IMG/VR virus record: IMGVR_UViG_3300036760_000095
Location: 1 to 24,297 of that record
DNA length: 24,297 bases
Origin: a virus
Direction: 5' to 3' (one strand)
Of the stretch, positions 1 through 24,297 are shown piece by piece. How positions within the stretch are numbered: the first letter of the stretch is position 1; every line of letters starts with the position of its first letter. A program made the position numbers and the translations under genes. The notes beneath the pieces were generated by a model. The model searched no databases, was not told where the DNA came from, and worked only from the letters and a program-made list of their open reading frames with translations.

Positions 1-2
1 CT

Positions 3-104
3 TGTGGCAAAAAAAGGAATAAGAGTAAAGAATATTGTGATGAACACTTAAAAGAAAAATCCCGCAAAAAGTTAGAAAGATATTATAAGAAAAAGCATTC
101 CTAA
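3..104 (+). CDS. C-terminal fragment of a small zinc-binding basic protein
   Basis: The open frame enters from the left edge and ends at TAA 102-104. The visible 33 residues start CGKKRNKSKEYC, a C-x10-C spacing, and are followed by a very basic tail ending in YYKKKHS. This looks like the last part of a small zinc-finger protein, similar in style to the short Cys-rich proteins at 8401 and 11508. The start and any upstream domains lie outside the window, so no function can be assigned. Confidence 0.5.
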   Translation, partial: CGKKRNKSKEYCDEHLKEKSRKKLERYYKKKHS

Positions 105-125
105 CCTTTAATCTTTTAAAAGAAA

Positions 126-446
126 ATGAAAATAGACCATGCAAAACTTAAAATAACACACCCCAACGAAGAAGATACCAGAGAAATGCTTAATCTGCAA
201 GATTATAAGTATCTTGGTTATCAAAATGAATGGCAACACGTTCATTTTGATGAGTTGGGCAATATCACAGAAGATAACCATCGGGCGAGAAGTGTCGGCT
301 ATCTCACAAAAGATTACCCAGAATACGGAAAGTGCAGAGATTTGAAACACAAGATAAGAAATATGCAACACAATAATCGCGGAAGTAATTGCACTTATTG
401 GTGTATTGAATGTAAAATATTTTGGAAAGTAGATATGAGTGATTAA
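126..446 (+). CDS. hypothetical phage protein with C-terminal Cys cluster
   Basis: A 106-residue protein not recognised as a named family. Four cysteines (C70, C89, C93, C96) near the C-terminus could bind zinc; the cluster reads NCTYWCIECKIFW. There is no signal peptide or membrane segment. The start lies in an A-rich leader without Shine-Dalgarno, as for most genes here. A 10-mer TAATCTTTTA (109-118) precedes it and recurs at 461-470 ahead of the next gene, so it may be part of a promoter or leader element. Confidence 0.6.
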   Translation: MKIDHAKLKITHPNEEDTREMLNLQDYKYLGYQNEWQHVHFDELGNITEDNHRARSVGYLTKDYPEYGKCRDLKHKIRNMQHNNRGSNCTYWCIECKIFWKVDMSD

Positions 447-514
447 CTCTATTAAAATCTTAATCTTTTATACGAAACGAAGTAATGCAAATTAACAATT
501 AAGTCTAAAAATAT

Positions 515-736
515 ATGAGCATACTAGGAAAAATGTTTAGAGTTGCCCGAAGAACAGTAGAATTACCAATAGCGGTGGTAAAAGATGTCGCCACTATGGG
601 AATGAGAAAGGCGATGGACGAGAGTTTTTACACGGAAGATAAACTAGACGATATAAAATTCGCTATTGATAATCATTGCAAAAAAATTGCAATGATTATT
701 TATAAAGAAAACGGATTTGAAGATATTAGTAATTAA
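515..736 (+). CDS. small conserved-type phage protein
   Basis: 73 residues beginning MSILGKMFRVARRTVELPIAVVKD, an amphipathic N-terminal helix of a kind often seen in short phage proteins of unknown function. The C-terminal half is charged and helical (TEDKLDDIKFAIDNHCKK). The family resemblance is from memory and the function is unknown. The next gene begins a few bases after its stop, so the two are probably co-transcribed. Confidence 0.6.
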   Translation: MSILGKMFRVARRTVELPIAVVKDVATMGMRKAMDESFYTEDKLDDIKFAIDNHCKKIAMIIYKENGFEDISN

Positions 737-749
737 GGGTATGAATAGT

Positions 750-977
750 ATGGAAAAAGAAATAACACAAAATATAATTGAGGGACTTGCCGAACTTGAA
801 CACGAACAATGGATAGCGTGGAGTAAAAACATTCACAAATTAGAAAACATAAGTCGTGAAAGAGCAGTGCGATGGCGAAAACTTTGGAAACCTTATAAAA
901 AACTCACCGAAAAAGAAAAAGAACAAGACAGAGTTTGGGCTAGAAAAGTATTAGACTTATTAGAAATTGATTACTAA
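750..977 (+). CDS. RyR-domain-like small phage protein
   Basis: 75 residues from the ATG at 750. That start is preferred over the upstream ATG at 741 and TTG at 717 because AAGGGT (736-741) sits about 8 nt before it. The pattern EHEQW..W near residue 20, then RW..LW.PY..L.EKEKEQDR.WA, matches the short RyR-type (ryanodine receptor repeat-like) proteins common in phages. Their role is not known; a ligand- or nucleotide-binding adaptor has been suggested for the fold. Its 3' end overlaps a possible antisense ORF from the minus-strand RNA region (960-1055). Confidence 0.6.
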   Translation: MEKEITQNIIEGLAELEHEQWIAWSKNIHKLENISRERAVRWRKLWKPYKKLTEKEKEQDRVWARKVLDLLEIDY

Positions 978-1055
978 CCCCCCAATGCCTAAACTATCCT
1001 CTCTCCGGCTGATCGTATTAAAGAAGTTAGTGGTAGTGTTTTGGCTTCTTAACAT
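960..1055 (-). CDS. possible 31-residue ORF with consensus Shine-Dalgarno
   Basis: On the minus strand, ATG (1055-1053) follows AGGAGG (1068-1063) with a 7-nt gap, the best ribosome-binding site in the window. The ORF runs 31 codons to TAA and reads MLRSQNTTTNFFNT..., resembling nothing I know. The start codon lies in a predicted 8-bp stem (990-997 with 1054-1061), which could control it. It may instead be just part of a structured RNA, so coding status is doubtful. Confidence 0.25.
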   Translation of the reverse strand: MLRSQNTTTNFFNTISRREDSLGIGGLVINF

Positions 1056-1444
1056 AGTTTATCCTCCTCAACTTATACCGAAAGGGAAGGAAATGTCCCT
1101 AGCCATAGAATTAAGCTAGTAAATATAAAAGGCAAAATCGGTTTTTTCTCCGCACCTTTTCTATTTTTCTGTAATGTTTCTTATAGCTCCACTTTCGTAT
1201 CATCGCTACCCAAAACATCCGACTCCTTAATACTCAAAAATAGTTCTATGTAAAGTATTAAGCGATGGCATTGTGCCGTCAACCGATGAGGGTGAGGTAT
1301 CTGCCCGTCTCACAATTAAGTTGGCTTCCAAAAGAGGCTGTGATTTCGCCCACCATTCTTTCAGCACTAGATACAAACGAAAAGGAGACGGACTATTACA
1401 CTTGGTAGTTAAATAATCGCATCTCCTTTTCGTACCAAGTGTAA
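985..1444 (-). ncRNA. candidate large structured noncoding RNA
   Basis: No convincing gene fills 978-1533, but the stretch is dense with inverted repeats. From the 5' end of the minus transcript: two interlocking stems (1433-1444 with 1396-1407, 12 bp; 1422-1432 with 1378-1388, 11 bp), a long-range stem 1369-1374 with 1297-1302, alternative 1292-1296 with 1309-1313, hairpin 1267-1270/1274-1277, nested 1263-1267/1201-1205 and 1254-1262/1226-1234 (9 bp), 1127-1132/1155-1160 enclosing 1139-1141/1150-1152, 1115-1119/1099-1103, and 990-997/1054-1061 enclosing 1021-1026/1045-1050. The strand is set by the promoter at 1449-1476, whose predicted start falls at about 1442. I could not match it to tmRNA, RNase P, SRP or a group I intron by eye. 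It could be a known large phage RNA (GOLLD or ROOL type) or new. Confidence 0.5.
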
Positions 1445-1448
1445 ACTA

Positions 1449-1482
1449 ATTTTAGCAAATGGTAAAAGTATGTCAAGTGGGG
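1449..1482 (-). promoter_or_regulatory. minus-strand sigma70-type promoter for the structured RNA
   Basis: Read on the minus strand: CCCCAC then TTGACA (1476-1471), a 16-nt spacer and TAAAAT (1454-1449). The expected start, about 7 nt further, is at 1442, inside the first stem of the structured region. The same arrangement, CCCCACTTGACA-N16-TAAAAT, is found in front of the scaffold/capsid genes at 13399-13432. This supports both as real phage promoters. Confidence 0.6.
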
Positions 1483-1491
1483 TGTGGATAA
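1483..1491 (-). promoter_or_regulatory. perfect DnaA-box 9-mer TTATCCACA
   Basis: TGTGGATAA on the plus strand equals the consensus DnaA box TTATCCACA on the minus strand. It lies directly upstream of the minus-strand promoter, and TTATCCCCA occupies the same place at the capsid promoter. It may bind host DnaA or a phage regulator. Confidence 0.4.
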
Positions 1492-1497
1492 AGTAGC

Positions 1498-1526
1498 TTG
1501 CAAAGAAACTTGAAGTGTGATAGATT
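1498..1526 (+). promoter_or_regulatory. weak promoter for the methyltransferase-like gene
   Basis: TTGCAA (1498-1503), a 17-nt spacer and TAGATT (1521-1526) lie just before the ATG at 1534. The match is moderate. It would be divergent from the minus-strand promoter, with the DnaA-box-like site between them. Confidence 0.3.
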
Positions 1527-1533
1527 ATAGGGA

Positions 1534-2160
1534 ATGAAGATATTGAATTTGTATTGTGGTATCGGTGGCAACAGAAAACTTTGGGGAACGGAACATGAAA
1601 TAACAGCAGTTGAAAATGTGCCAGAAATTGCAAAGATTTATCAAGGTTTCTTTCCTAATGATAAAGTAATTATCACAGATGCCCACCAGTATCTTTTAGA
1701 GCATTTTATGGAATATGATTTTATATGGTCTAGTCCACCTTGCCCAACACATTCACAGATAAGATTTATAGCTACCTATGAAAAAGGAACAGACAAAATT
1801 AGGCAAAAGCCAGTATTTCCAAATATGAAACTTTATGAAGAAATAATCTTTTTGAAACATTATTATAGGGGAAAGTGGTGTGTTGAAAATGTAGTTTCAT
1901 TTTATGACCCACTTATAGTCCCTAATGAGTTTGGAGGACACTGGTTTTGGACTAATTTTATTTTAAGAGATTTTGAAACTGGGGCAAGTAGAGAACATTA
2001 TGGTCAAATAGAAGATTTAGAAAAAGTAAAAGGTATAACCTTACCACCAAACATAAAGGGCAAAAGATTACTTTTAAGAAATTGTGTAGAACCTTCACTA
2101 GGAAAACATATTTTAGATTTAGCCATTAACCCAATTAACTTACAAAAAAGTATATTCTAA
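1534..2160 (+). CDS. short DNA cytosine-5 methyltransferase-like protein
   Basis: 208 residues with the order of motifs of C5 cytosine methyltransferases. Motif I is LNLYCGIGG (residues 4-12, SAM binding), an acidic residue follows at E27 (motif II) and at D49 (motif III), motif IV is SSPPCP with the catalytic Cys at residue 70, and motif VI is VENV (117-120). Near the C-terminus SLGKHILDLA resembles motif X. Typical members have 300-400 residues, so the target-recognition part is very small; the protein may need a partner, modify a simple site, or have changed substrate. In phages such enzymes usually protect DNA against host restriction. It overlaps the next small ORF by one base (TAATG). 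Confidence 0.75.
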   Translation: MKILNLYCGIGGNRKLWGTEHEITAVENVPEIAKIYQGFFPNDKVIITDAHQYLLEHFMEYDFIWSSPPCPTHSQIRFIATYEKGTDKIRQKPVFPNMKLYEEIIFLKHYYRGKWCVENVVSFYDPLIVPNEFGGHWFWTNFILRDFETGASREHYGQIEDLEKVKGITLPPNIKGKRLLLRNCVEPSLGKHILDLAINPINLQKSIF

Positions 2161-2318
2161 TGAAAAAACTAACTACAACAGAACGAGCTACTAAGGCAGG
2201 CAAAGCACGCTGGGCTAAAATATCTTCAAAGGAAAGGTCAAAGTATTCAAGTGCCAACGGAAAGAAACTTTGGGAAAAGATACGAAGTGGTGGGCTTGCT
2301 AGCAAACTTGACAAATAA
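2160..2318 (+). CDS. small basic hypothetical protein
   Basis: 52 residues, MKKLTTTERATKAGKARWAK and onward, rich in Lys, Arg and Ser, with a repeated GKxxW pattern (GKARW, GKKLW). It starts in the TAATG overlap with the methyltransferase-like gene, which suggests translational coupling. It could be a small DNA-binding partner, but this is inference only. Confidence 0.5.
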   Translation: MKKLTTTERATKAGKARWAKISSKERSKYSSANGKKLWEKIRSGGLASKLDK

Positions 2319-2556
2319 ATAATTTTGTATGATATTGCGAAACTGGGGATAACTTGCTTGCAAGCTAAAAAGTAGTATGCTATATTTAATTTATGGAAGG
2401 ATAGCGGAGTAACTGGTCTACAAGAAATTGTTTTCTGGAAACCACCCTTAAACTTCCTAGTTAGCCAGCCTTCGGGCAAACGGTTAGCGATAAATTGTTT
2501 TTAATATCTCTCAAGCCCCGTCTTTATAAGGAGCGGGGCGAAAAGAGAAAAAATAT
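2319..2556. other. gene-free stretch with palindrome and hairpins
   Basis: 238 bases without a convincing gene. It holds a TGGGGATAA box (2344-2352, inverse of TTATCCCCA), a perfect 10-bp palindrome GCTTGCAAGC (2356-2365), a UUCG-type hairpin (2468-2470 with 2475-2477) and a strong GC hairpin at 2515-2539. TTGACA at 2308-2313 with GATATT at 2331-2336 (17-nt spacer) is a possible weak promoter. A minus-strand open frame here looks like chance. Confidence 0.4.
2515..2539 (+). other. GC-rich hairpin ahead of small gene
   Basis: GCCCCG (2515-2520) pairs perfectly with CGGGGC (2534-2539) around a 13-nt loop. It ends 17 nt before the ATG at 2557 and has no U-run after it, so it is not a classical terminator. 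It belongs to a recurring type of leader hairpin seen also before 14220, 16171 and 19288. Confidence 0.5.
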
Positions 2557-2715
2557 ATGGATGAAGAAATGATGATTAACGAAGCGATGTCAATAGGATT
2601 AACTAGAGAAGAAGCGGAAGATGCCGTTGATGTGTTTGGAAGCGACCTTGAAGAATTTTCAAGTCGGGGCGAAAGTTTAGAAGATATTTTAAGCAAAGAT
2701 TATCAACCAGCATAA
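2557..2715 (+). CDS. small acidic hypothetical protein
   Basis: 52 residues, acidic and helical (MDEEMMINEAMSIGLTREEA...). The stretch GLTREEAEDAVDVFG looks like a short UBA-like or helix-turn-helix segment, but it is too short to name. A leader hairpin precedes it and an A-rich spacer replaces a Shine-Dalgarno. Confidence 0.5.
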   Translation: MDEEMMINEAMSIGLTREEAEDAVDVFGSDLEEFSSRGESLEDILSKDYQPA

Positions 2716-2727
2716 TATAAAAAGTAT

Positions 2728-2892
2728 ATGGAAAACCAATTTAGTTTTGAGAATACATTAAAAATCTTCGGGCAGATAAATAAAGCATTGTATGGGGTAG
2801 AACTGCCAAACAAACACTATCAAGATAAACTAGATATGGACCGGGCGGGCGATTTAGAAGAACTTAAAAAGGACGAATTTTATGACAGATAA
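2728..2892 (+). CDS. small hypothetical protein
   Basis: 54 residues, MENQFSFENTLKIFGQINKA and onward, with an acidic C-terminal half. The family is not recognised. It follows the previous small gene after 12 bases and overlaps the next by 11 bases, so it belongs to the same transcript. Confidence 0.5.
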   Translation: MENQFSFENTLKIFGQINKALYGVELPNKHYQDKLDMDRAGDLEELKKDEFYDR

Positions 2893-2971
2893 AACAACTA
2901 GAACAAACACAGAATTATTTATAGCAACATTATTATTTATGGTCGGACTTTTAACAGCAATAATTATATAA
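2882..2971 (+). CDS. 29-residue single-span membrane peptide
   Basis: MTDKTTRTNTE followed by a hydrophobic stretch LFIATLLFMVGLLTAIII to the end: a short polar N-terminus and one membrane helix. It overlaps the preceding gene. Function unknown; a similar tiny membrane protein is encoded at 5103. Confidence 0.45.
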   Translation: MTDKTTRTNTELFIATLLFMVGLLTAIII

Positions 2972-3000
2972 ATTAGATTATTAAGTTAATATAAAACAAT

Positions 3001-6423: not shown

Positions 6424-6837
6424 ATGGAAACTACTTTATGTGGAAAATGCAATAAACCCAAAGGCAAGGAAGAGGGTTGTTGTAAATGCGGGCGGCCATT
6501 GAAATTTGAATCCTTAAAAGATTTACAAGATAGGATTGATATTTATTTTAATAATACTTCAAAAGATGAATGGACTATAACTGGATTAGCAATGGAGCTT
6601 GACACTTTTAGAAGTGTATTGGTTGATTATGGGACAGGGAAGTATGATGATGTTGATGAGTTTTCCAACGCGATAAAAAAGGCTAAGCAAAAGGTAGAAA
6701 ATGGCTATGAAATAGATTTAAAAAAGTCAGGAAGAAGTGGAACTATATTTGCTTTAAAGAATTTTGATTGGACTGATAAAAATGAAACTAATTTATTAAA
6801 TGCCGGAAAATCTTTTGATTTTGGATGGGAAAAATAA
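6424..6837 (+). CDS. terS: terminase small subunit (gp3-like) with N-terminal zinc ribbon
   Basis: 137 residues. The part from GRPLKF (about 24-29) onward fits small terminase/DNA-packaging gp3-like proteins: a predicted helix-turn-helix around TITGLAMELDTFRSVLVDY, then KKAKQKVENGYE and FALKNFDWTDKNE. It would bind the packaging site and hand DNA to the large subunit. Unusually the N-terminus has a C6-x2-C9 ... C19-x-C20-x2-C22-type cluster, probably a zinc ribbon. It overlaps terL by 13 bases. Confidence 0.75.
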   Translation: METTLCGKCNKPKGKEEGCCKCGRPLKFESLKDLQDRIDIYFNNTSKDEWTITGLAMELDTFRSVLVDYGTGKYDDVDEFSNAIKKAKQKVENGYEIDLKKSGRSGTIFALKNFDWTDKNETNLLNAGKSFDFGWEK

Positions 6838-8168
6838 AAGTTGTAATAAAATATAAACCTAGAAATTGGGCTAACGCTTTACATAATGCGGTAACTCGTT
6901 GGATTGTAATGATATTACATAGAAGAGCTGGAAAAACCACTGCCGCGCTGAACCATTTGCAAAGAGATTGTCTAAAGAAAGGTGGAACACTTTATGCATA
7001 TATTGGACCCACTTACAAACAGACTAAACGAATTGCTTGGGATATAGCCAAGAAAATATCTGAAAATATACCAAACATTGATTATAATGAAGCAGAACTA
7101 ACGATAAAATATCCTAATGACTCAAAACTATTTCTAGCTGGCAGTGATAATATAAATGCTTTGCGAGGATTAGGACTTTGGGGAGTAGGACTAGACGAGT
7201 ACCCTTTGCAGTCTCCGGCTCTATTTACAGAAGTTATCTCAAAGTGCCTAGCAGACCATTTAGGATATTGTATATTTTTTGGAACACCTAAAGGAAAAAA
7301 CCATTTTTACAGAATATACAATACCGCTCTAAAGAACCCGAAAGAATATACAGTTATCTATCACACTATTGACGATAGTTTAGCGAATGAAGAAGGCGAA
7401 ACGATAGATAATTTACGCCAAGCTCTTGAAGACGATAGAAAACTTGTAGCTCAAGGCGAAATGACCCAAGATGAGTTTGATCAGGAATGGTATAATTCCT
7501 TTGAAGCATCGGTTAAGGGAGCTTACTATTCTACACAAATAGCTGAAGCGCGGAAGCAGGGCAGAATTAAGATTGTGCCTTATGACCGGGAACTTTTAGT
7601 GCATACTGTTTGGGATTTAGGAGTTGGGCAAGCTCTTGGTATTGGTTTCTACCAAAGAATAAACAGGGAAATGCGAATGATAGATTTCTGGGAAGGACAA
7701 GGAGCTGAGGGTATTTTAGATGGAATTGTATCTGTGCAAAACAAGCAATATATTTATGGAAAGCATTTTGCTCCGCACGATATTAGAGCTAGAGAAGAGT
7801 CCACCGGCAAGACCAGACTTGAAACAGCTAGAGAAAAAAATATAAACTTTGAAGTAGTGCCTATGATTTCAGTAGATGACGGAATAAATAAAGGAAAGTT
7901 GATGTGGAGTAGATTATGGGTAGATAGTGTAGCTTGTGAAGATTGGCTGGAAAAAGTATCACAATATAAACAAAAATGGAATGAGGATAAGCAAATGTTT
8001 GAAGATAAACCCTCGCACGATTTTACTTCACACGCCGGGGATGTGCATAGATATGCTTCTATTGTAGAAGATTTAATGACTAACGAATTTGATAACAATG
8101 AAAGACAACGAATAGAGCAGAACCGATTTGATAGGGTAAGTGTTGCCCGTGATTACGGGTTGACTTGA
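6825..8168 (+). CDS. terL: terminase large subunit
   Basis: 447 residues, normal for this family. The ATPase domain has a deviant Walker A HRRAGKTT (32-39) and Walker B WGVGLDE (119-125, D124/E125 catalytic). The C-terminal RNase H-like nuclease domain shows acidic residues at D264 (TVWDLG), D319 (PHDIRA) and D406 (AGDVHR). It powers DNA translocation and cuts concatemers at the portal. The start at 6825 overlaps terS. The stop is TGA, inside a promoter for the next gene. Confidence 0.95.
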   Translation: MGKIKVVIKYKPRNWANALHNAVTRWIVMILHRRAGKTTAALNHLQRDCLKKGGTLYAYIGPTYKQTKRIAWDIAKKISENIPNIDYNEAELTIKYPNDSKLFLAGSDNINALRGLGLWGVGLDEYPLQSPALFTEVISKCLADHLGYCIFFGTPKGKNHFYRIYNTALKNPKEYTVIYHTIDDSLANEEGETIDNLRQALEDDRKLVAQGEMTQDEFDQEWYNSFEASVKGAYYSTQIAEARKQGRIKIVPYDRELLVHTVWDLGVGQALGIGFYQRINREMRMIDFWEGQGAEGILDGIVSVQNKQYIYGKHFAPHDIRAREESTGKTRLETAREKNINFEVVPMISVDDGINKGKLMWSRLWVDSVACEDWLEKVSQYKQKWNEDKQMFEDKPSHDFTSHAGDVHRYASIVEDLMTNEFDNNERQRIEQNRFDRVSVARDYGLT

Positions 8169-13189: not shown

Positions 13190-13191
13190 AG

Positions 13192-13403
13192 TTATACACA
13201 CCCTATTTATAGTAATAGTATTTATATATAAAGATTATTATTACTATTAGTCCTGTGGATATGTGGAAAAGTATTTTATCTCTTTATTTTGCAAGATAAT
13301 AAAAAACTTTGTGGGTGCGTAATATGTGTATAACTTGGGGATTGGCTATAATAACTTTATTTAACAAGACAGAAATCAACAAGTTATTAACAGGTTATCC
13401 CCA
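13192..13403. other. candidate replication origin or DnaA-box cluster
   Basis: The stretch 13190-13489 has no gene. It holds TTATACACA (13192-13200), inverted copies TGTGGATAT (13254-13262, one mismatch), TGTGGAAAA (13262-13270) and TGTGTATAA (13325-13333), and TTATCCCCA (13395-13403, one mismatch). Three of the five fit TTWTNCACA exactly. Between the first two boxes is an AT-rich inverted repeat (13209-13217 with 13239-13247). This resembles an origin with an unwinding element, but the sites could instead bind a regulator of the late promoter. Confidence 0.45.
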
Positions 13404-13404
13404 C

Positions 13405-13432
13405 TTGACAAGAAGTATGGAAGTAGTAAAAT
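13405..13432 (+). promoter_or_regulatory. late promoter for scaffold and capsid genes
   Basis: TTGACA (13405-13410), 16-nt spacer and TAAAAT (13427-13432), preceded directly by CCCCAC. The 12-mer CCCCACTTGACA is identical to that of the minus-strand promoter at 1449-1482, and spacer length and -10 are the same. It leaves a leader of about 50 bases before ATG 13490, which contains a small hairpin (13471-13482). Confidence 0.65.
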
Positions 13433-13489
13433 TATAAATAATTGAGCAGAGGGTCTCTTAAATCCTCATTGAGCCACAGCTCTTAATCT

Positions 13490-14219: not shown

Positions 14220-15500
14220 ATGGCAAATTCAATGACTGCTTGGAATCCTGCTTACTGGACTCCGACAATGCAAGAGACTTTCTTAAAAGAAAGTGTTGCG
14301 CTTGGAATCGCTAATACGGAATTACGAGCAGATTTAAAAGACGGTGATACGCTTCATAAGCCTTATGGTTCATATCCTCGTGTTCAGACTTACACAAAAG
14401 GCACTGATATTACGGTCAAAGATATTTCAGCAACAGACGAAACCCTAACAGTAGCGACTGCAAAGGTGGCGTCTTTTTATTTGGATGACATTGATGCTAT
14501 CCAGAATAAATACAACACCATTAAAGAGTTTGCTTCCCTTGCTCAAAGGCAATTAAACAACACTCTTGATCAGGCTGTATTTGCTGAATACTCTAATGCA
14601 GGCACTACTCTTAGTGGTTTAAGTATTGGAGAAGCGGCAGGCGGTATTGTAATGTCAGCGGCTAACACTGCTAACATCTTTACGGCGGCTGGCAGAACGC
14701 TTAACCAAAAGAAAAGGTTGGGTAGTGGAGTAGGAGAGCGTTTTGCTCTTATCGGCCCAAGAATGCTTGAAACTATCCAAAATTATGTGGGTGGCAGAGA
14801 GACAGTCTTTGGCGAGGTAGTTTCTGATAATGGAAAAGTTGCTAATCGTTTCGGCTTTGGCTTGAGACTTTCTAACAACTTGCCTTACTCAGCGACCCTT
14901 ACTCAGTCAACCATTGCGACAGCGGGAGATACTTTCACTATAAACGGTGTTACTTTCACGGCGGCGGCAAATGGCGCGGCTTCAGCGGCTGGTAGTTGGT
15001 CTATTGATGTATCGGCTGCGAACTCTATTACTAATTTGGTGGCTTTGATTAACGGAACAGGAACGCCGGGTGTTACAACCTACGCTGACTTGTCTGCTGA
15101 AAATCGCCAGCTGATTGAGGAATCGGGTATCGTAGCGGTAGCGACAGCAACGACTCTAACTCTAACGGGTTATGGGGACATCGTGGTTACAGAATCCCTT
15201 ACTCCAGCTTCAAGTGTATGGTCTTTGCAGACACAGTATTCTCTTATGGGACAAGTTGGGGCTATCGATTTGGTGGCTCAGCAAGCTCCGACTGTGGTCT
15301 TCCGAGACGCGCAGTTGAGACTAGGCAAGTATGTCCATCCTTGGATTAACAAAATGACAGTCCAAGTAAAATCTTTTCTAATTGGCTTGGAAGCCCAGAA
15401 GTGGGTGACAAGGGCGAAGGATGTAATTACATCCACGCTGAACGACTTAACGAAAGGACTCCAACTATTGGAGATGCGAAAGTCTGGTCTCTACGCATAA
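14220..15500 (+). CDS. major capsid protein, HK97 fold with inserted domain
   Basis: 426 residues. The opening (WNPAYWTPTMQETFLKES) and VKDISATDETLTV, ASFYLDDIDAIQ and LAQRQLNNTLDQ match coat proteins of short-tailed phages. Residues about 235-330 form a Thr/Ala/Gly-rich insert (AGDTFTINGVTFTAAANG, then TTYADLSAENRQ), likely an accessory surface domain as in P22-type coats. The end (LGKYVHPWINKMTVQVKSF) closes the HK97 fold. It follows scaffold and is the highest-expression gene expected here. Confidence 0.9.
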   Translation: MANSMTAWNPAYWTPTMQETFLKESVALGIANTELRADLKDGDTLHKPYGSYPRVQTYTKGTDITVKDISATDETLTVATAKVASFYLDDIDAIQNKYNTIKEFASLAQRQLNNTLDQAVFAEYSNAGTTLSGLSIGEAAGGIVMSAANTANIFTAAGRTLNQKKRLGSGVGERFALIGPRMLETIQNYVGGRETVFGEVVSDNGKVANRFGFGLRLSNNLPYSATLTQSTIATAGDTFTINGVTFTAAANGAASAAGSWSIDVSAANSITNLVALINGTGTPGVTTYADLSAENRQLIEESGIVAVATATTLTLTGYGDIVVTESLTPASSVWSLQTQYSLMGQVGAIDLVAQQAPTVVFRDAQLRLGKYVHPWINKMTVQVKSFLIGLEAQKWVTRAKDVITSTLNDLTKGLQLLEMRKSGLYA

Positions 15501-21838: not shown

Positions 21839-22537
21839 ATGCCAGTAGGAATTTACAAACATAAACCAAATCAGGGTTTTCAAAAAGGACATAAGATAGG
21901 TGTAGGAAATAAAAATACTACAGGTTTTATTTTTTCTGATATTTCTAAAAAGAAAATAAGTGATAGATTAAAAGGAAAAAAGAAATCGGAAACACATAAA
22001 GAAAATATAAGAAAAGCTAAAATTGGAAGTAAAAATCCTATGTATAAAGTAGGACAAAATAAATGTCTTAACTGCAATAAACAATTAAATGGTTATCAAG
22101 CAAAAAGATGCAAATCTTGCGCAAATAAAGGAAAAAATAATCCTCAATACTGTAAAGGAAAACCAGTTTGTATAGATTGCAATAAATTACTATCAAATTA
22201 TGGTTCCAAAAGATGTAATAGTTGTCGTAGAATGTTTGAGGTTGGTGAAAATAGCCCCCATTGGATAGATGGTTTGTCTCGTAACGGTTACCCAAAAGAA
22301 TTTAATCCAACCCTTAAACTAAAAATCCGAACTAGAGATAACTTCACTTGTTGCTTATGTGGTAAAACAGAGCGAGAAGAACTTGAAGAACTAAATCAGG
22401 TATTGTGCGTAAATCATATTGACTTTGATAAAAATAATTGTTCTGAAAAAAACTTAAATGCACTTTGCTTGAGGTGTAATGTAAAAATAAACAGAGAACG
22501 AGATTATTGGACTAATTATTTTAATAAAAATGGATAA
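21839..22537 (+). CDS. HNH endonuclease with two zinc ribbons (clade C)
   Basis: 232 residues. NUMOD3-like motif (about 34-64), then two zinc ribbons (C76/C79/C91/C94 and C111/C114/C126/C129), a SPHWIDG motif, and a C-terminal HNH module: C171/C174, VNHIDF (H193), N206, C210/C213. This HNH differs from the other clades. It lies between the nozzle-like and fibre genes and overlaps the latter by eight bases. Confidence 0.8.
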   Translation: MPVGIYKHKPNQGFQKGHKIGVGNKNTTGFIFSDISKKKISDRLKGKKKSETHKENIRKAKIGSKNPMYKVGQNKCLNCNKQLNGYQAKRCKSCANKGKNNPQYCKGKPVCIDCNKLLSNYGSKRCNSCRRMFEVGENSPHWIDGLSRNGYPKEFNPTLKLKIRTRDNFTCCLCGKTEREELEELNQVLCVNHIDFDKNNCSEKNLNALCLRCNVKINRERDYWTNYFNKNG

Positions 22538-24297
22538 TAACATTCAACCAATTCAAGACTTCTCTACTCCGCAAGATGAATCACAAGCGACTGATGTGAC
22601 GCCTGTCGTTCCAATTTTCGCCTTCAGAGACATCTTAAACATTCCCGATACTTCTGTTCCTCTCGCAAACTATGTAGCAGGACTTCAACAAAACGCTACC
22701 ACTACTCAAGCAGGTCAAGGCAACAATGTTTTTATGATAGACCCGCAACAGGGTATATGGCTCGGGGCGGCACTTTTCGCTAATGCTCCGTTTTCAGTAA
22801 CTATGGCGGGAGCGGTAACCGCTTCGTCTTTAACTACAACTCATTTGGATATACCAGACACCACAACCGCTAATTCTTTTCATGTTGATGTCAATGGCAA
22901 CGCTTGGTGGGGTTCTACCGCTCTTGCTACCGCAGTCGCTTCGGTAACAAAAGCAGGTGTAGCAACTTTTACTTCGGTCGTTCTTTCAGGTTCAGTCGCC
23001 ATTTCTGGTATAGCAAACAATAGTGCAACCGATATTTCTTTAATGGAAAAAACTCATAACTTAGTATTTTCCGTGACTGATGCAGACACTATCGCTTGGA
23101 CTTCAGGCACAATAGTTATGTCTAACGGCAGAACTTTCGCTATTTCCGCAGGCAACACAGGAAATATGGCGGCGCTCACTTATATCTACCTAGACACCGC
23201 CGTTTCTTCCACAGTCTTGCAGACTACCACAACCTATTCTACGGCAATGGGAGCAAACAAGACTTTACTTGGCACAGCACAGAATAATACAGTTACTGCT
23301 AACTTTATCCCTTATGGGGCAGGTCAAATTCTTGTAGACGGAGCGAATATCGGAGCACTGTCTATCGTAGCGGGGAATATCGCGGCTTCTTCAATCACTT
23401 CCACAAAAATATCCGTCTCTCAACTTTCAGCTATCTCTGCCGATTTGGGAGCAGTAACGGCAGGCACAATAGTTTTAGGAGCTAGTGGTTATCTTCGTTC
23501 GGGTCAAACAGACTTTGACACAGGCACAGGATTTTTCGTTGGCATAAGCGGAGGCACGGCAAAGTTTTCTTTCGGCAATTCGGCAAGCAATAAAATAACT
23601 TGGGACGGTTCTACTTTAACTATCGTAGGCACAGTCCCCGATACTCAAGTGTTCACTTCTAGTGGAACTTGGACTAAACCTGCAGGGGCTAAATTTGTGC
23701 GTGTGCAATGCTGGGGTGGTGGCGGTGGAGGAGGAGGTTCTGCAACTCTTTTTGGTGATGGTAGTGGAGGAGGAGGTGGTGGTTATACAGAAACAATTTT
23801 TAATGCAAGTGATTTAAGTGCTACTGTAACAATAACTATTGGTGCTGGTGGTGCAGGAGGAGTCGCAGGCGATAATCCTGGAACAGTAGGAGGTAATTCA
23901 ACTTTTGGTTCTTATGCAACTGCTTATGGTGGTGGTGGAGGTTCAAAAGGTAGTCAAAATGGTGGTGGTGGTGGTGGTGGAGCATTAGGAGTTGGTGCTG
24001 TTGGAGTTGCAACAGGTGGTGCTGGAGGAAGACCTATTGCAGGTGCTGGAGGAAATGGAGCTACTGCTGCTACCGATTCGGCATTTGGCGGTGGCGGGGG
24101 TGGAAATGCAGGGTCAAATGTTAGTGGAGGATATTCTGGTCAAGGAGGTGGTGGAGGTGGAACAGTTAAAGGAAGTGATACTACTCTTGGTCTTGCAGGT
24201 GGTAATTCTGTTTATGGCGGTGGTGGCGGTGGTGGTTCAGGAAGTGCAACTGGAGGAGCAGGAGGAACTTCAGTTTATGGAGGAGCAAATAAAACAG
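22530..24297 (+). CDS. tail fibre protein with glycine-rich domain (partial)
   Basis: Starts at ATG 22530 (MDNNIQPIQDFSTPQD) and is open to the right edge, 589 codons. Residues 1-370 look like a fibre stem: short beta repeats, Ala/Thr-rich, with SNGRTFAISAGNT. From about residue 373 (FTSSGTWTKP, VRVQCWGGGGG) it is a glycine-rich domain with many GGGGG runs, resembling the Gly-rich receptor-binding domains of phage adhesins. Glycine codons become almost only GGT/GGA in this part, unlike the stem. It probably recognises the host surface. Confidence 0.8.
   Translation, partial: MDNNIQPIQDFSTPQDESQATDVTPVVPIFAFRDILNIPDTSVPLANYVAGLQQNATTTQAGQGNNVFMIDPQQGIWLGAALFANAPFSVTMAGAVTASSLTTTHLDIPDTTTANSFHVDVNGNAWWGSTALATAVASVTKAGVATFTSVVLSGSVAISGIANNSATDISLMEKTHNLVFSVTDADTIAWTSGTIVMSNGRTFAISAGNTGNMAALTYIYLDTAVSSTVLQTTTTYSTAMGANKTLLGTAQNNTVTANFIPYGAGQILVDGANIGALSIVAGNIAASSITSTKISVSQLSAISADLGAVTAGTIVLGASGYLRSGQTDFDTGTGFFVGISGGTAKFSFGNSASNKITWDGSTLTIVGTVPDTQVFTSSGTWTKPAGAKFVRVQCWGGGGGGGGSATLFGDGSGGGGGGYTETIFNASDLSATVTITIGAGGAGGVAGDNPGTVGGNSTFGSYATAYGGGGGSKGSQNGGGGGGGALGVGAVGVATGGAGGRPIAGAGGNGATAATDSAFGGGGGGNAGSNVSGGYSGQGGGGGGTVKGSDTTLGLAGGNSVYGGGGGGGSGSATGGAGGTSVYGGANKT

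Follow-up and report, generated by a model that had tools for sequence, protein, structure and literature searches.

A short RNA element was found on the minus strand of a gene-free gap in the window, which is the whole 24,297-bp IMG/VR virus record and may itself be a fragment of a phage genome. It consists of two interlocked helices at the predicted 5' end of a transcript, preceded by a promoter and a DnaA-box-like site. The P-Q-P'-Q' layout of the helix strands was recovered, with different sequences, from eight other IMG/VR contigs, and in six of these the start codon directly after it belongs to a replication gene, which is prim-pol in five contigs and a D5-type helicase in one. Conservation of the architecture across phages is well supported. 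The feature, promoter included, is read here as the 5'-terminal attenuator-like leader of an early replication operon, to which we give about an even chance; the element would then probably serve as an on/off switch for expression of the replication gene.

All long ORFs of the window are oriented on the plus strand, as had been claimed for the genes surrounding the gap; they include the landmark genes of Table 1, and several HNH endonucleases are also present in the window. The gene-free stretch of about 550 bp described in the initial annotation was likewise confirmed: no ORF of at least 60 aa lies inside the gap under table 11, TAG=Q or table 4, and the longer ORFs touching it are only those overlapping neighbouring genes. 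A recoded or hidden gene, which would have spoken against an RNA, was ruled out by this check. Downstream of the element, about 400 nt follow on the minus strand in which the largest ORF has 31 codons; this ORF is possibly a small gene of the minus-strand transcript, and no homologue of it was found. No tRNA was detected near the element, and a host search with the terminase in genome contigs gave no match. In two contigs with the same methyltransferase (L003 and L004), the preceding gene abuts the methyltransferase and the syntenic gap is absent, and the syntenic gap of L081 was rejected as a homologue because it contains small ORFs.

Table 1. Coordinates of the module and of neighbouring features in the window.
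Feature	Position	Strand	Remark
Gene-free gap with module	978..1533 (556 bp)	none	
31-codon ORF	960..1055	minus	GAGGAGG SD (1063-1069) 7 nt before AUG
GUAUCUAGUG, imperfect second partner of P	1365..1374	minus	in predicted minimum-energy fold
Tail UUGUAUC after Q'	1370..1376	minus	compare UUUUUGUAU in G038 and L100
Q', 3' strand of helix 2, CGUCUCCUUUUCGU	1377..1390	minus	
P', 3' strand of helix 1, UACCAAGUGUAA	1396..1407	minus	in apical loop of Q hairpin
Q, 5' strand of helix 2, ACGAAAAGGAGAUG	1420..1433	minus	base 1433 common with P
P, 5'-terminal strand of helix 1, UUACACUUGGUA	1433..1444	minus	perfect 12-bp complement of 1396-1407
Sigma70-type promoter, TTGACA-16-TAAAAT, TGn extension	1449..1476	minus	predicted start ~1443-1441
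DnaA-box-like 9-mer TTATCCACA	1483..1491	minus	47 nt upstream of P
C5-methyltransferase-like gene	1534-2160	plus	
Terminase	6825-8168	plus	
Major capsid protein	14220-15500	plus	

Other parts of the window were also inspected. The apparently ORF-free end at 22531-24297 was rejected as a second gene-free region, since, read by eye, it is one Gly-rich, tail-fibre-like ORF running off the contig. A gap at 13190-13489 showed a minus-strand fold with z -3.1, two TTATACACA sites (13192 on the plus and 13325 on the minus strand) and an 11/12 plus-strand promoter at 13405. At 601-750, a local minus-strand fold (z -4.85) was observed over the palindrome AATCATTGCAAAAAAATTGCAATGATT, within a 73-aa gene.

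The promoter of the module is an 11/12 match and the sole such site with a TG extension in the 24 kb, where shuffled sequences lead one to expect 0.03. With P at the predicted 5' end, the earlier claim of a minus-strand promoter starting transcription at the first stem is supported. The 9-mer upstream is the sole exact copy in the window (0.27 expected). Counted over all copies, the DnaA-box-like motif TTATNCACA stands 47-64 nt upstream in seven of the nine elements, window included; among the eight related loci it is found at -53 to -64 in six (G039, G041, G042, L165, L193 and G016), and G038 and G040 have near matches only. When 1.9 Mb were scanned for TTATNCACA sites, an element score of at least 19 was reached downstream of 7 of 103 sites and of 0 of 60 reversed-motif controls, the window giving the highest score of the scan. 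As judged from the consensus, DnaA would bind the site. The site is not sufficient to predict the element, since in the complete phage MW202577 a TTATGCACA is located in the gap between the divergent early and late genes, where no such element occurs. A TTGACA-17-TACAAT promoter accompanies the element in G040, and in most copies P begins near the predicted transcription start.

In the window copy, two perfect 12-bp inverted repeats (1377-1388/1422-1433 and 1396-1407/1433-1444) interleave in the order P-Q-P'-Q', with P at the predicted RNA 5' end. Among 20,000 shuffles of the gap, 47 held even one such 12-bp repeat and 1 held an interleaved pair with arms of at least 10. The Q helix comprises 12 perfect bp, or 14 bp with one G-U pair present on the minus strand only, and its stem extends further in the minimum-energy fold. 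Since the G-U pairs of helix 2 exist on the minus strand alone, the RNA exceeds its complement in stability (-34.3 vs -21.5 kcal/mol). Prefix folding predicted that P:P' is formed first (-13.9 kcal/mol at ~50-53 nt) and is then replaced by Q:Q', with about -30 kcal/mol at ~69 nt (-30 to -34 kcal/mol). The tail after Q' is weak as a terminator U-run and is not called by the terminator scan. The L3 of 5-7 nt would have to cross ~23 bp, which makes full coexistence of both helices unlikely and their alternation more likely in this copy.

The related copies were reached by scanning phages with a window-type capsid protein (G038, G039 and G040) for interleaved perfect repeats. With both arms of at least 11 and a span of at most 110, two places were found in 818 kb of phage DNA, namely the window and G040. 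With arms of at least 9, one of them at least 11, there were six: one each in the window, G038, G040 and a GC-rich phage, and two in G039, one of which lies in TATAGTA repeats. The copies in G038 and G039 immediately precede a Prim-Pol gene (PF09250 with PriCT_1), the full-length G038 protein having a VapE-like part too. A search with the Prim-Pol protein led to G041 (L098) and G042 (L100), where a leader of this layout precedes prim-pol, and a search with the portal protein led to L165 (Prim-Pol) and L193 (D5-type helicase without Prim-Pol). Up to the start codon, the leaders at L165:4239 and L193:2810 are identical except for one base, and the proteins diverge right after that codon, the N-terminus of the replication protein being exchanged between the contig with Prim-Pol and the one lacking it; the leader is thus a unit maintained independently of the coding sequence. 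A further copy precedes a zinc-ribbon gene in G016 (L051).

In the six contigs with a replication gene (G038, G039, G041, G042, L165 and L193), the distance from Q' to the start codon is no more than about 10-70 nt. A U-run follows Q' in most copies, the T-rich tails of the eight relatives contain at least 4 consecutive T, and G040 has T8. P:P' has only 6 bp in G042. L1 measures 20-31 nt in G038, G039, G041 and L165, which would be long enough, so that a full pseudoknot with both helices at once looks possible in these four. A descriptor requiring P of at least 7, Q of at least 9 and a T-rich tail matched 13 times in 275 kb of related phages, compared with four shuffled sets that yielded 0, 0, 1 and 1 matches; 559 kb of other phages contained 6. 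These enrichment figures are optimistic, as the descriptor was drawn up with the window and the first relatives already known. In G040, the element is followed by a gene-free stretch (L095:14560-14966) with repeated TTATATTATTAGC inverted motifs.

Covariation was assessed in the alignment of G038 and G039. Over 22 pairs, 97.7% of cells were paired, compared with 25-50% for slid partners, and four double compensatory changes were counted, one in P and three in Q. Changes of this kind, whose absence from homologues would have counted against the initial annotation, are therefore present. Because only two sequences are involved and 30 of 500 shuffles reach the same counts, the sliding control and the independent copies weigh more. 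The other copies have diverged too far for alignment, yet each keeps both helices.

The sense RNA was more stable than the antisense RNA in six of the nine copies (window, G039, G040, G041, G042 and G016), and no such preference was seen in G038, L165 and L193. The element lies on the strand opposite the late genes in the window, G038, G039 and G040. The minus strand is indicated for the window by its promoter, by P coinciding with the predicted start, and by G-U pairs that lengthen Q on this strand only. A plus-strand reading was considered, as P' and Q' are adjacent in G038 and G039; it was rejected on account of the promoter, the G-U pairs, the side of the DnaA box and the strand relative to the late genes in G038-G040.

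Attenuation is suggested by the predicted hand-over from P:P' to Q:Q' together with the U-run after Q' in most copies, and from this we infer the switching mechanism as follows. An early-direction transcript would start on the strand opposite the late genes, with P at its 5' end, and P:P' would form first as the RNA emerges. The competing Q:Q' hairpin would form later and, with the U-run, would constitute an intrinsic terminator, which P:P' would delay or block, allowing read-through into the replication gene. Termination would be favoured if the RNA 5' end were captured, for instance by a protein or by an RNA complementary to it. The complementarity of P:P' is kept, with one compensatory change, and this helix is predicted to form before Q:Q'. 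Against an attenuator stand the poor U-tail of the window copy and the lack of a minus-strand replication gene within its contig, the three copies without sense-strand preference, the short P:P' of G042, and MW202577, whose early/late gap has the DnaA-box-like motif and lacks the element.

As far as the contig reaches, no replication gene is recognisable on the minus strand after the window element; for this reason, and given the weak U-run, the window copy is probably an orphan or a rearranged or variant leader. It would give a short RNA or be read into short ORFs, and it may be an orphan, the leader of small genes or the source of a short trans-acting RNA. A bolder version, which we regard as speculative and rather unlikely, is that of an undescribed phage RNA switch in which a DnaA-responsive promoter would be combined with capture of the RNA 5' end by the loop of the downstream terminator hairpin, so that prim-pol is expressed; orphan copies such as that of the window would then give only the short RNA, which could silence replication by pairing with the leader in trans (superinfection immunity).

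The initial annotation had proposed instead a large structured RNA that stands by itself, an ncRNA of about 460 nt and perhaps of a new class, which is the least probable of the explanations considered. It has in its favour the promoter of its own, a long ORF-poor stretch and a whole-RNA z of -3.3 (plus strand, -1.4). This signal is concentrated at the 5' end: the first ~75 nt (1444-1365) gave a z of about -7.5 and 1364-1447 alone -7.6, whereas the remaining ~400 nt (960-1376, minus strand) folded no better than shuffles (z -0.46), and sliding 150-nt windows across the gap gave a strong signal only where 1377-1450 was included. The gap had also been described as filled with inverted repeats. 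This was borne out for the two perfect 12-bp repeats and, to a modest degree, for seven-base repeats in 978-1375 (15 vs 5.7 +/- 2.9), but the latter added no folding stability and the stability excess is confined to the first ~75 nt. No intrinsic terminator was called on the minus strand in 1-3000, which leaves the 3' end of the proposed RNA undefined; the part 3' of 1377 had no homologue in any collection searched, and the related phages mostly carry the element as the 5' leader of an mRNA for a replication gene.

Nor could a large RNA of the GOLLD or ROOL kind be upheld, as there was no Rfam match and no tRNA nearby, and no excess structure was seen after the first ~75 nt. Rfam, a search that had been called for, returned no family at gathering score and nothing relevant for the window, the gap or the relatives, in line with the earlier remark that no match was recognisable; relaxing the threshold to E<=10 brought up nothing beyond implausible models, which were eukaryotic or of short sRNAs. 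Since the element keeps structure and not sequence, no match to the region was found by blastn in phages, in plasmids or in the complete records of relatives; pseudo-protein seeds derived from the RNA matched nothing in viral and genome collections. A separate structured region was noted on the plus strand of L047:6895-7195 (G002, IMGVR_UViG_3300009537_000070), upstream of terminase genes, with z about -5, a 20-nt closing stem (90% complementary) across 164 nt and no Rfam match. A TGACGGCNCNATGCC hairpin common to this contig and the window was judged likely to be chance. The terminase Walker A of G002 reads GARG-TGA-GKT, which suggests TGA as a sense codon in that phage.

Translational control is a further explanation, in which the prim-pol itself, the single-strand binding protein or some other protein of the phage would bind the 5'-terminal pseudoknot and repress translation of the replication gene. 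It would agree with the place of the pseudoknot in a phage replication-gene leader, as in T4 gene 32 (PMC3014915), with the short distance from Q' to the start codon in six relatives and with an L1 that would accommodate both helices in four. The U-run in most copies argues against it, the window L3 looks too short to span both full helices, and protein contacts would have to co-evolve with a sequence that varies between phages; we consider it unlikely. Somewhat more doubtful is a DNA-level element, with DnaA box, promoter and inverted repeats forming an origin and the RNA, if made, priming or activating replication. Such an origin would suit TTATNCACA upstream of seven of nine elements and the six elements beside a replication gene, but not the strand asymmetry in stability of the window copy, which stems from minus-only G-U pairs, or the position of P near the predicted start in most copies. 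More origin-like in appearance are separate gene-free, AT-rich regions before the terminase small subunit in G038 (L091:19189-20000) and G039 (L094:4840-5620), which contain many TATAGTA repeats, a common inverted repeat around CACAATACATATTGTG, and TGTGGATAA. Processive antitermination of the HK022 put kind, in which a folded 5' RNA binds RNA polymerase so that later terminators are ignored, is very unlikely: size and place fit, put being ~70 nt and putL lying just after the early promoter (PMC9378689), but put is built of two successive stem-loops sharing sequence and here the helices interleave, the sequences are not conserved, a U-run follows and Rfam gave no match.

With the attenuator-like leader as the preferred reading, the vague notion of a structured RNA gives way to a defined, repeatable module of DnaA-box-like site, promoter, 5'-terminal interlocked helices and replication gene, found in uncultivated phages without described leader regulation. 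It combines a preserved topology with a changing sequence, a kind of conservation that escapes sequence search and Rfam-style discovery. Should the proposed switch prove correct, the onset of phage replication would be coupled both to host DnaA and to the 5' terminus of the RNA itself, a link open to testing with short synthetic leaders.

When compared with known systems, the element would, on the preferred reading, resemble transcription attenuators as a 5' leader with competing helices and, in most copies, a hairpin with U-run before the gene. Classical attenuators have one strand common to both competing helices, whereas here the arms are separate and would be incompatible mainly through interleaving; the regulated gene lies directly downstream in six relatives and not in the window. 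GOLLD and ROOL, also phage-encoded structured RNAs with pseudoknots, are much larger, sequence-conserved and often located near tRNA islands (PMC12286853), in contrast to a window element of ~75 nt with no Rfam match, no tRNA and no structure over several hundred nt. The HK022 put RNA, again a structured RNA of ~70 nt at an early phage promoter (putL just downstream of it; PMC9378689), has two tandem conserved stem-loops that bind the zinc-binding domain of RNAP beta', unlike the interleaved helices and U-run described here. The T4 gene 32 mRNA carries a pseudoknot near the 5' end of its leader (PMC3014915) and is similar in this respect as a phage replication-gene leader; in the present case, a U-run follows helix 2 in most copies, the arms are longer, the sequences are unrelated, the gene encodes a prim-pol or helicase, and protein binding of the leader is putative. 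In the P4 immunity system, with its CI RNA and seqA/seqC (PMC4825925), CI is a separate processed RNA, while the complementarity of the present element lies within one leader; on the reading preferred here, both would combine RNA-RNA pairing with termination in a phage replication-operon leader.
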